Source of the DNA: Rhizobium sp. NRK18
Lineage (GTDB): Bacteria; Pseudomonadota; Alphaproteobacteria; Rhizobiales; Rhizobiaceae
Reading direction: 5' to 3'
Assembly: GCF_024385575.1 (NCBI RefSeq)
Contig: NZ_JANFMV010000001.1
Location: forward strand, 1,703,681 to 1,767,680
DNA length: 64,000 bases
Both the position numbers and the translations under genes were made by a program. Under the pieces are notes generated by a model. The model saw nothing but the letters and a program-made list of their open reading frames with translations, did no database searches and was not told where the DNA came from. Shown piece by piece: positions 15,790 through 31,658 of this stretch (the stretch's first letter is position 1; every line of letters begins with the position of its first letter).

Positions 15790-16135
15790 GGTGACGGGGG
15801 TGTAGGTGAAGGCTTCTGTTGCCAGGTGCCTTCGGACCCCGCCTTAAAGTGCTACCCTCAAGGACTTAGGTTGGGTTTCCCGCACCGCCATTAGGCAGCG
15901 AGAGCGTAACCCTGAGCGTTGTTGTCGTTTGCAACTACTCTAGTGACCCGATAACGGTGGTATCATGCCGGGTAAAAAGTCGATCTTTACGCCCTTGTCG
16001 ATCCTATATCGCCCCCATCACAAGCCGGCCATTGCATCAGCCGTTCCGCCGGTTTGTGGTGGAGGCGCCGGGTACCGCCCCCGGGTCCAATAGGTTTATT
16101 ACATCGCTGTTTATCACCATAGCCGGGCAAGCCGG
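15790..16135 (-). ncRNA. ssrA: tmRNA, circularly permuted two-piece form
   Basis: On the minus strand the tag reading frame is at 15932-15891: GCA start and TAA stop, encoding ANDNNAQGYALAA. The coding piece begins at 16016 with GGGGGCGATATAGGATCGAC, the canonical tmRNA 5' end. Its first seven bases pair perfectly (one G-T) with CGCCTCC at 16067-16061, which is followed by the ACCA 3' end at 16060-16057. The acceptor piece is therefore encoded upstream of the coding piece with a 40-base spacer (16017-16056), the permuted arrangement of alphaproteobacteria. A TATATC -10-like box lies at 16148-16143. The two outer ends are approximate. Confidence 0.93.
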
Positions 16136-16297
16136 CAGACCTGATATAGGTGTTTCCGTCGCCCGTGAAAAGGGGGGCCGGTCGACATGGTGCGACAAAA
16201 TCCCCTGTCAGCTTGACGAAGTCATGTGCGCAGACCATTCTGCCGGTGCAGTTTAATCGATCCTCTGTAAAGATTATTTCTTGGGAAGGAACAGAAG

Positions 16298-29071: not shown

Positions 29072-29100
29072 TTGACGGCTCTGCGGTTTGTGTCTATCAA
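29072..29100 (+). promoter_or_regulatory. sigma-70 promoter of the ilvBN leader
   Basis: TTGACG (29072-29077), a 17-base spacer and TATCAA (29095-29100) form a close match to a housekeeping promoter. The expected transcription start is about 29106-29108, which is at or 1-3 bases before the leader-peptide ATG at 29109. Confidence 0.75.
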
Positions 29101-29108
29101 TCCGTCCC

Positions 29109-29165
29109 ATGAAAAATTCGGCAGTTATTCTCGTGGTGGGACGGCGCATGGGCAGGATGGTGTAA
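29109..29165 (+). CDS. ilvBN leader peptide (attenuator), 18 residues
   Basis: The ORF encodes MKNSAVILVVGRRMGRMV and stops at TAA 29163-29165. Codons 5-10 read Ala-Val-Ile-Leu-Val-Val (GCA GTT ATT CTC GTG GTG, 29121-29138), all pyruvate-family or branched-chain residues, directly ahead of the acetolactate synthase genes that make them. This is the signature of ribosome-mediated attenuation: scarce charged Val/Leu/Ile tRNA stalls the ribosome and prevents formation of the terminator at 29201. The promoter places the transcript start next to the ATG and there is no Shine-Dalgarno, so the peptide would be read from a nearly leaderless RNA, as reported for trpL of Sinorhizobium meliloti. Confidence 0.82.
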   Translation: MKNSAVILVVGRRMGRMV

Positions 29166-29191
29166 CCATCCGGCGATAGCCACCCATGCGC
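29144..29191 (+). promoter_or_regulatory. leader RNA hairpin (pause/alternative structure)
   Basis: GCGCATGGG (29144-29152) pairs perfectly with CCCATGCGC (29183-29191). Nested inside, GGATGG (29155-29160) pairs with CCATCC (29166-29171). The 5' arm overlaps codons 12-15 of the leader peptide, so a ribosome stalled on the Val-Ile-Leu codons would keep it open. Confidence 0.7.
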
Positions 29192-29200
29192 GGTAAACCA

Positions 29201-29223
29201 GGCTCCCAAAGGAGCCTTTTTTT
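29201..29223 (+). terminator. ilvBN attenuator terminator
   Basis: GGCTCC (29201-29206), a 4-base loop and GGAGCC (29211-29216), followed by seven T. It lies between the leader peptide and ilvB, so it must be bypassed for ilvBN expression. A candidate antiterminator by eye pairs 29149-29152 with 29205-29208 and 29158-29161 with 29197-29200. Confidence 0.88.
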
Positions 29224-29290
29224 ATGTCCGCAAACAGGCTAACAGGGCCGGGAAATACCGGCGAGCAAGAAGACGAACGGAACGGAACTG

Positions 29291-31069
29291 ATGACGGGTA
29301 CAGAGAACAGGATGACGGGAGCGGAAATCGTTCTGCAGGCTTTGAAGGATAACGGCGTCGAGCACATCTTCGGTTATCCCGGCGGTGCGGTGCTGCCGAT
29401 CTATGACGAGATTTTTCAGCAGGAAGACATTCAGCACATTCTCGTGCGTCACGAGCAGGGCGCCGGCCATGCTGCCGAGGGCTATGCGCGTTCGACCGGC
29501 AAGGTCGGCGTCATGCTGGTCACCTCCGGTCCGGGTGCGACCAATGCAGTCACGCCGCTGCAGGACGCGCTGATGGATTCCGTCCCGCTCGTCTGTCTGA
29601 CGGGCCAGGTGCCGACGACGCTGATCGGCTCGGATGCCTTCCAGGAATGCGACACCGTCGGCATCACGCGGCCGTGCACCAAGCACAACTGGCTGGTCAA
29701 GGACGTCAACAAGCTGGCCGAGACGATCCACGAGGCCTTCCGGATTGCCCAGACGGGTCGCCCGGGTCCGGTCGTCGTCGACATCCCGAAGGACGTCCAG
29801 TTTGCCACCGGCACCTATGTTGCCCCCTCGGCGCATGTCGCCGAGCCGAGCTACAAGCCGAAGAAGCAGGGTGACATCAAGGCGATCGAGGCTGCCGTCG
29901 AATTGATGGCGAAGGCCCGCCGGCCGGTCATCTATTCTGGTGGCGGCGTCGTCAATTCCGGTCCGGAAGCCTCGACGTTGCTGCGCGAACTGGTTTCGCT
30001 CACCAACTTCCCGATCACCTCGACCCTGATGGGTCTCGGCTGCTATCCGGCCTCCGGCGACAACTGGCTCGGCATGCTCGGCATGCACGGCTCCTACGAG
30101 GCCAACATGGCGATGCATGATTGCGACGTCATGGTCTGCATCGGCGCACGCTTCGACGATCGCATCACCGGTCGCCTGGATGCGTTCGCGCCGAATTCCA
30201 AGAAGATCCACATCGACATCGACCCGTCCTCGATCAACAAGAACGTCCGCGTCGACATCCCGATCCTGGGCGATGTCGGAACGGTTCTGGAGGACATGGT
30301 CCGCCTGTGGCGGGCCATGGACAAGAAGCCGGACGCCGCGCAGACGGAAGACTGGTGGACCTCGATCCAGCGCTGGCGGGCCCGCAACTCGTTTGCCTAT
30401 GCGCCGAGCAACGATGTCATCATGCCGCAATATGCCATCGAGCGGCTCTACGAGATGACCAAGGATCGCGATGTCTACATCACGACCGAAGTCGGCCAGC
30501 ACCAGATGTGGGCGGCGCAGTTCTTCGGCTTCGAGCAGCCGAACCGCTGGATGACGTCCGGCGGCCTCGGCACCATGGGCTACGGCCTGCCGGCAGCGCT
30601 GGGCGTCCAGATCGCCCATCCGGAAGCGCTCGTCATCGACATTGCCGGCGACGCGTCCGTCCAGATGTGCATCCAGGAAATGTCGGCGGCGATCCAGCAC
30701 AACGCGCCGATCAAGATCTTCATCCTCAACAACCAGTACATGGGCATGGTGCGCCAGTGGCAGCAGCTCCTGCACGGCAACCGGCTGTCGAACTCGTATA
30801 CGGAAGCGATGCCGGACTTCGTCAAGCTCGCCGAAGCCTACGGCGCCGTCGGCATTGCCTGCGACGATCCCAAGGAGCTCGATGCGGCCATCCAGAAGAT
30901 GATCGACAGCGACAAGCCGGTGATCTTCGACTGCCGTGTCGCCAATCTCGCCAACTGCTTCCCGATGATCCCCTCGGGCAAGGCGCATAACGAAATGCTG
31001 CTGCCGGACGAGGCCACCGACGAGGCCGTCGCCAATGCGATCGACGCCAAGGGCCGCCAGCTCGTCTGA
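29291..31069 (+). CDS. ilvB: acetolactate synthase large (catalytic) subunit
   Basis: A 592-residue thiamine-diphosphate enzyme that condenses pyruvate to acetolactate (valine, leucine) or with 2-ketobutyrate (isoleucine). The N-terminal Pyr domain has GYPGGAVLPIYDEIF and the catalytic Glu in LVRHEQGAGHAAEGYAR. The central domain has FAD-binding GLGCYPASGDNWLGMLGMHG. The C-terminal PP domain has GDASVQM and NNQYMGMVRQWQ. The ATG at 29291 is used; another in-frame ATG lies at 29312. The gene is under the leader attenuator described above and is followed by the regulatory subunit gene after 16 bases. Confidence 0.97.
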   Translation: MTGTENRMTGAEIVLQALKDNGVEHIFGYPGGAVLPIYDEIFQQEDIQHILVRHEQGAGHAAEGYARSTGKVGVMLVTSGPGATNAVTPLQDALMDSVPLVCLTGQVPTTLIGSDAFQECDTVGITRPCTKHNWLVKDVNKLAETIHEAFRIAQTGRPGPVVVDIPKDVQFATGTYVAPSAHVAEPSYKPKKQGDIKAIEAAVELMAKARRPVIYSGGGVVNSGPEASTLLRELVSLTNFPITSTLMGLGCYPASGDNWLGMLGMHGSYEANMAMHDCDVMVCIGARFDDRITGRLDAFAPNSKKIHIDIDPSSINKNVRVDIPILGDVGTVLEDMVRLWRAMDKKPDAAQTEDWWTSIQRWRARNSFAYAPSNDVIMPQYAIERLYEMTKDRDVYITTEVGQHQMWAAQFFGFEQPNRWMTSGGLGTMGYGLPAALGVQIAHPEALVIDIAGDASVQMCIQEMSAAIQHNAPIKIFILNNQYMGMVRQWQQLLHGNRLSNSYTEAMPDFVKLAEAYGAVGIACDDPKELDAAIQKMIDSDKPVIFDCRVANLANCFPMIPSGKAHNEMLLPDEATDEAVANAIDAKGRQLV

Positions 31070-31085
31070 GGAAGGAACAGGAACC

Positions 31086-31658
31086 ATGAACGCACATCTT
31101 CAACCGACGGGTTCGGCCTATTTCATCGCCAAGGAAACCGAGGCCGCCGAGAGCCACACGCTCTCCGTTCTCGTTGCCAACGAGCCGGGCGTGCTCGCCC
31201 GCGTCATCGGCCTTTTCTCCGGCCGGGGCTACAATATCGAAAGCCTCACCGTGTCGGAGACCGAGCACGAGGCGCATCTGTCGCGCATCACCATCGTCAC
31301 GCGCGGTACGCCGCACGTGCTGGAGCAGATCAAGGCGCAGCTGGAGCGCATCGTTCCGGTTCATCGCGTCGTCGACCTGTCCGTCCGCGCCCGTGAGCTC
31401 GGCCATGACCGGCCGATCGAACGCGAGCTCGCCTTGATCAAGGTGTCGGGGCAGGGCGAGGATCGGCTGGAGGCGCTGCGTCTCGCAGACGCCTTCCATG
31501 CCAAGGTGATCGATGCCACGACCGAACACTTCATCTTCGAACTGACCGGCAAGGTCTCCAAGATCGACCAGTTCATCGCCATCATGAAGCCGCTCGGTTT
31601 GATCGAGATCTGCCGCACCGGCGTGGCGGCGATGAATCGCGGTCCGAAGGGCATGTAA
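31086..31658 (+). CDS. ilvN: acetolactate synthase small (regulatory) subunit
   Basis: A 190-residue IlvH/IlvN-type subunit that stabilises the catalytic subunit and gives valine feedback inhibition. The ACT domain starts at about residue 25: SVLVANEPGVLARVIGLFSGRGYNIESL, shown here as LVANEPGVLARVIGLFSGRG then YNIESLTVS, with the effector-site Asn and Gly residues intact. RIVPVHRVVDL follows, and the C-terminal domain has RELALIKV and FHAKVIDATTEHFIFELTG. The ATG is preceded by GAGGAAGGAACAGG. It is cotranscribed with ilvB and ends at a strong hairpin terminator 40 bases downstream. Confidence 0.96.
   Translation: MNAHLQPTGSAYFIAKETEAAESHTLSVLVANEPGVLARVIGLFSGRGYNIESLTVSETEHEAHLSRITIVTRGTPHVLEQIKAQLERIVPVHRVVDLSVRARELGHDRPIERELALIKVSGQGEDRLEALRLADAFHAKVIDATTEHFIFELTGKVSKIDQFIAIMKPLGLIEICRTGVAAMNRGPKGM

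Follow-up and report, generated by a model that had tools for sequence, protein, structure and literature searches.

The leader that precedes the ilvBN operon of Rhizobium sp. NRK18 is very probably a ribosome-mediated transcription attenuator that senses the supply of valine, isoleucine and leucine. The analysis was performed on a window of 64,000 nt, by which we mean the whole stretch of DNA that was analyzed (contig NZ_JANFMV010000001.1, positions 1,703,681 to 1,767,680, assembly GCF_024385575.1). The parts of an attenuator that were observed here are the geometry of promoter and ORF, the register of the codons, the selection acting on them, a covarying hairpin, a terminator and the link to ilvB.

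All features of the leader lie on the plus strand. A sigma-70-type promoter was read directly from the sequence at 29072-29100, with a -35 box TTGACG (29072-29077), a 17-nt spacer and a -10 box TATCAA (29095-29100), and relatives show the same distance between it and the ATG. Eight nucleotides separate the -10 box from the ATG (29109-29111) of a small ORF that is conserved in relatives and consists of 18 codons, MKNSAVILVVGRRMGRMV, followed by a stop codon (29109-29165). From this distance, transcription is predicted to start at about 29107-29109, and the leader ORF is predicted to be leaderless or to have a 5' UTR of at most 2 nt. The sensor codons Val-Ile-Leu-Val-Val (GTT ATT CTC GTG GTG), recognized by their register in the aligned elements, occupy 29124-29138, and the last of them starts 8 nt 5' of the main hairpin. 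The 5' arm of this hairpin (GCGCATGGG, 29144-29152) lies inside the ORF and its 3' arm is CCCATGCGC (29183-29191); both arms were identified by folding and covariation. Folding also placed an inner hairpin GGATGGT/ACCATCC at 29155-29171, which contains the stop codon TAA (29163-29165), and a second small inner hairpin GGC-GATA-GCC at 29172-29181. An intrinsic terminator, A-GGCTCC-CAAA-GGAGCC-T7, was read at 29200-29223 and was also predicted by folding; it is composed of GGCTCC (29201-29206), the loop CAAA, GGAGCC (29211-29216) and a run of seven T (29217-29223). Right after the T run lies ATGTCC (29224-29229), which corresponds to a hexamer conserved at this place in relatives. The T run ends 67 nt before the ATG (29291) of ilvB, encoding the large subunit of acetolactate synthase (29291-31069; NF006581, 1216.8 bits, cut-off 974), and ilvB is followed by ilvN, encoding the small subunit (31086-31658; PF10369 and PF22629). 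By sequence, fold and profile match, the terminator sits between the leader ORF and a gene for branched-chain amino acid (BCAA) biosynthesis. The folding energy of 29107-29230 was -54.8 kcal/mol, compared with -37.75 ± 3.59 kcal/mol for shuffled sequences (z = -4.75; 0 of 200 shuffles). Promoter, near-leaderless ORF, hairpin, terminator and ilvB were all located where the original prediction, made from the bare sequence, had placed them, and the length of 117 nt that it gave for 29107-29223 was correct.

An Rfam scan of the window returned four matches, among them RF02502 (Atu_C8) at 29111-29233 on the plus strand (124.6 bits, E = 3.2e-27). The leader matched this model over its full length (1-122 of 122), with a score exceeding the gathering cut-off (50 bits). 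RF02502 was not named in the original prediction. The window also contains an ordinary alphaproteobacterial tmRNA at 15805-16175 on the minus strand (RF01849, 295.7 bits). In the NRK18 genome the leader was the only RF02502 match at E ≤ 0.001. At the same threshold 217 of the 397 genomes in a sample of the order had a match, and just 72 of the 397 reached the Rfam cut-off; in a family sample, 146 of 151 genomes matched, 141 of them above the cut-off. The cut-off was also exceeded in all 50 named genomes reached via close ilvB relatives, while none of 14 control genomes matched. The element was located upstream of ilvB at 80 of 80 named ilvB loci, these being the nearest IlvB relatives. With the element at all of these loci and in 146 of the 151 family genomes, the small ORF on which the original prediction depended is conserved among relatives. 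RF02502 is typed by Rfam as a Rhizobiales sRNA, whereas the copy in the window is, by its genomic context, a cis leader of ilvB. In the literature searched, RF02502 was named only as an item in one benchmark list.

To describe the start of the leader across the family, the 60 nt upstream of every element were taken and a -35/-10 pair was assigned by a simple score. A pair was found in 147 of 151 distinct upstream sequences, and the mean score was 9.09 in real and 7.14 in shuffled upstream sequences. In 115 of the 147, the distance from the end of the pair to the ATG was 6-8 nt, compared with 95 of 1067 pairs in shuffled sequences. The predicted near-leaderless start thus characterizes the family and is no quirk of the window. 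The conserved spacing agrees with the almost leaderless start that had been proposed for this leader, and near-leaderless initiation appears to be conserved across the whole family.

For the analysis of the sensor codons, 84 of 87 elements were aligned, a chosen subset of the matches in the order sample and the named genomes; the other three were dropped as they lacked a clean ORF. The distance from the last BCAA codon to the hairpin was 8 nt in 63 of the 84 elements, 5 nt in 15, 2 nt in four, 11 nt in one and 7 nt in one, which puts 83 of the 84 in one reading register. To these were added 74 of the 80 named loci, with an ORF required in register, a choice that favors the codon result; of the remaining named loci, three lacked an ORF in the chosen register and three gave none. 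The resulting set contained 136 distinct ORFs, of which 120 precede genes other than MFS transporters, 119 of these in register. In these 119 ORFs a BCAA was encoded by 95, 98, 100 and 99% of the codons at the four positions adjoining the hairpin, against 0-37% when the two shifted frames were read. All one-step variants of the commonest codon remained BCAA codons at the four positions (66/66, 53/53, 37/37 and 43/43), where 44-56% would be expected. Leu or Ile was favored at the outer two positions and Val at the inner two. Codons -6 and -5, ahead of the BCAA run, varied freely among the distinct ORFs, and the codons behind the run encode R-R-M-G and similar residues because they form one arm of the paired stem. 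Since the residues flanking the BCAA run are either variable or set by RNA pairing, it is the BCAA sensor and the RNA structure that are conserved, not the peptide. The conservation of register and codons throughout the family supports the earlier observation that the Val-Ile-Leu codons are placed where a sensor needs them.

The arms of the main hairpin paired with their own partner better than with arms swapped between lineages (z = -13.2), and the hairpin columns topped the covariation list (weighted pair covariation). In the window the main hairpin and the terminator do not overlap and are 8 nt apart; the gap was 3-9 nt in 67 of the 84 elements. In the other 17 the automatic fold put a pair at or inside GCGC, which proved to be a small pairing of its own within the spacer and not the terminator. 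To search for an antiterminator, the 84 elements were folded while a ribosome footprint was placed on one codon after another. In this constrained folding the terminator had a mean probability of 0.92-0.98 at every ribosome position, and no competitor was found. In the unfinished RNA the share of the terminator 5' arm that was paired upstream ranged from 0.25 to 0.50 over the ribosome positions, with no rise peculiar to stalled positions among the 84 elements (0.48 with the ribosome on the last BCAA codon and 0.50 with it on the stop codon). No alternative pairing covaried among the best 60 pairs of the weighted pair covariation, and no segment paired specifically with the terminator 5' arm when own and swapped duplexes were compared (z from -2.1 to +2.2). 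The most favorable value in this test was that of the BCAA run (-2.1), followed by the 5' arm of the hairpin (-1.5) and the other segments (0 to +2.2); the main hairpin arms, with the z given above, served as its positive control. Constrained folding, covariation and swap test thus gave no classical antiterminator for the RF02502 type; kinetic or tertiary routes lie outside the reach of these three tests. A hexamer resembling [A/G]T[T/G][G/C]CC follows the T run in 44 of 81 ilvB leaders; at terminator-like sites elsewhere in these loci it was seen in 2 of 76, so that it is no general property of such sites. The swap test gave no support for pairing of this hexamer with the hairpin or with the terminator (z from -0.70 to +1.90). 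Thus, the attenuator-type ilvBN leader and the sensor codons of the original prediction held up in comparison, but the classical mutually exclusive pair that it implied was found neither by folding nor by covariation or arm swapping. The puzzle is that the codons and the hairpin are under strong selection, yet an antiterminator is not visible.

We infer that leaderless initiation, premature termination and a response to amino acids are combined in this leader in the following way. RNA polymerase would start at the AUG or within 2 nt of it, and a 70S ribosome would begin translation on the 5' end of the transcript. The progress of this ribosome through Val-Ile-Leu-Val-Val would set the options of the main hairpin before the terminator is made. 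With ample charged tRNAs, most transcripts would stop at 29217-29223 and yield an RNA of about 115-117 nt, which would be the 'sRNA' of Rfam; if the ribosome stalls at the sensor codons, more of the polymerases would proceed into ilvB.

BCAA attenuators of the E. coli type (ilvGMEDA, ivbL, leuL) have a run of sensor codons and a terminator before a BCAA operon, together with alternative overlapping hairpins and ribosome-binding sites. In contrast, the RF02502 type has separate hairpins and an ORF with a predicted near-leaderless start. Attenuation of ilvIH in alphaproteobacteria was reportedly predicted by Vitreschak in 2004, and Tarleton is said to have addressed Caulobacter ilvBN in 1994. 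The ilvB attenuator is ordinary in kind, a widespread bacterial switch already known from Caulobacter ilvBN, and it is very well supported by comparison. In Caulobacter crescentus, ilvBN (ilvIH) is described as attenuated via an ilvL leader in which Ile and Val codons stand in tandem (PMC4117421). By this description it has in common with the window the operon, a leader ORF with such codons, a Rho-independent terminator and the membership of the Alphaproteobacteria (PMC4117421). Pausing is said there to block the terminator (PMC4117421), whereas no blocking structure was found in the RF02502 family. S. meliloti trpL is described as leaderless and as yielding the attenuator RNA rnTrpL and the peptide peTrpL, and rnTrpL, a leaderless product of attenuation, as regulating trpDC in trans (PMC10117765, PMC7143759). 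It resembles the ilvB leader in its small ORF, which is leaderless in trpL and predicted to be nearly so before ilvB, in its sensor codons, in the similar predicted size of the terminated RNA and in the bacterial family. It differs in its operon and amino acids and in its trans function, to which nothing in the ilvB leader sequence points.

Second copies of the element were examined at 25 loci, comprising six of the Rhizobium type and five from another family in the order sample, three tandem copies from a third family and 11 from named Rhizobium genomes; four more two-copy genomes lie outside this set. Judged by the next reading frame, 17 of the 25 unexpectedly precede an MFS transporter gene, and eight an ilvB paralogue. 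The 17 RF02502-type cassettes stand before Bcr/CflA-like MFS genes in two families, between which the MFS proteins share about 50% identity. Two of these proteins were scanned; both matched MFS_1 and were nearest to the Bcr/CflA efflux model TIGR00710, with 214.8 and 172.8 bits (cut-off 200.9). At three loci the ilvB paralogues were in tandem, about 2.7 kb apart and with one attenuator each, and two of these three pairs had Phe codons (FFVV, FFFVV) replacing Leu in their second leader. At five other loci, in Rhizobium, a second gene for acetolactate synthase carried an RF02502 leader of its own. When ilvB-linked second copies were compared with MFS-linked ones, similarity at the DNA level was restricted to 111-205 nt surrounding the element with its promoter, as though the cassette had moved by itself. 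The inner Val codons were kept in 16 of 16 distinct MFS-linked ORFs. No paper describing MFS-linked leaders was found, judged on titles and the starts of abstracts, which is weak evidence of novelty; the placement of such a switch before the gene of a membrane transporter, as seen in some relatives, may be new.

Orthologues of the MFS protein were searched for in a sample of 297 genomes from the order, of which 34 matched. The 15 nearest of these orthologues were preceded by an RF02502-type leader in four cases, by another form in six and by none in five, and at five further loci with 34-39% identity the automatic scan detected no leader. Among the 22 MFS loci found in 21 of 385 genomes sampled from the class, one had a leader of the RF02502 type, 11 had the other form and 10 had none; in two of the 11 (L203 and L209) the Val run was poor or absent. 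The other form, a variant attenuator recorded at 18 loci before more distant MFS orthologues, has a Val-rich leader peptide with VV or V-x-V in 14 of 17 by a loose count, often ending in R-M-D/G-R-stop. In the 16 variants that were aligned, the last three columns of the hairpin GGCGCATGG/CCATGCGCC double as the first pairs of the terminator, and the pairs held in 11-16 of the 16 sequences for the hairpin and in 13-16 of the 16 for the terminator. As three columns are common to both structures, they form a textbook mutually exclusive pair, unlike in the window leader, where the 3' arm of the hairpin and the 5' arm of the terminator are 8 nt apart and share nothing. A model built from the 16 aligned variants (R1) had no match in the NRK18 genome. 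In 297 genomes it gave nine matches, eight of them at ≥74 bits, six of these being training members; all eight precede MFS genes, and the ninth, at 31 bits, lies among other genes. When 11 carrier genomes were searched, R1 recovered the MFS-linked RF02502-type copy in only two (28.4 and 27.7 bits; E 0.001-0.003), and a third match (31.3 bits) was located elsewhere. These matches are at most suggestive of a shared ancestry of the two forms of MFS leader. We tentatively consider, at slightly less than even likelihood, that the cassette is a portable sensor of BCAA, chiefly Val, which controls ilvB, ilvB paralogues and a Bcr/CflA-like MFS transporter in several alphaproteobacterial families. The MFS variant would then be a complete attenuator whose antiterminator and terminator exclude each other, and the RF02502 type would be a relative in which hairpin and terminator have drawn apart.

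The terminated RNA or the 18-residue peptide might also act in trans, as rnTrpL and peTrpL are reported to do, either in addition to attenuation or in its place. The classification of RF02502 as an sRNA implies that a short RNA was presumably seen in Agrobacterium, and rnTrpL is described as a likewise leaderless and attenuation-made RNA with such a role (PMC10117765, PMC7143759). However, the codons ahead of the BCAA run vary and the residues behind it follow the paired RNA, and elements before other genes keep the hairpin and the Val codons but not the remaining peptide. The conservation of sensor and structure instead of the peptide lowers the case for a trans-acting peptide, and a trans role, which the original prediction had raised, is unlikely and finds no support in a sequence whose peptide residues are variable or fixed by pairing. 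The folding, which showed no competitor of the terminator, would also suit a stable sRNA gene with a constitutive terminator, where ilvBN is fed by leak-through and translation exerts no control; as this gives no reason for the selection of Val, Ile and Leu codons in one frame and register, we regard it as highly improbable.

A response to ribosome-stalling drugs in place of amino acids would explain the copies before Bcr/CflA-like transporters. The MFS linkage of 17 of the 25 second copies examined agrees with this, as do the drug-efflux pumps that form the closest families of the MFS proteins and the reported action of peTrpL upon antibiotic exposure (PMC7298713). Drug sensing would need no BCAA codons, however, and Val codons are kept before ilvB, ilvB paralogues and MFS genes alike; one of the two scanned MFS proteins, at 172.8 against 200.9 bits, also falls under the Bcr/CflA cut-off. 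We consider drug sensing quite unlikely.

With BCAA-sensing attenuation of ilvBN as the preferred reading, RF02502, an Rfam 'sRNA' without a known role, gains a likely cis function. If the cassette is indeed a portable BCAA sensor, the MFS transporter would belong to branched-chain amino acid physiology and would not be a drug pump. The transporter-linked copies, if confirmed, would assign a signal, the supply of valine, to transporters that have been named by their likeness to drug pumps.
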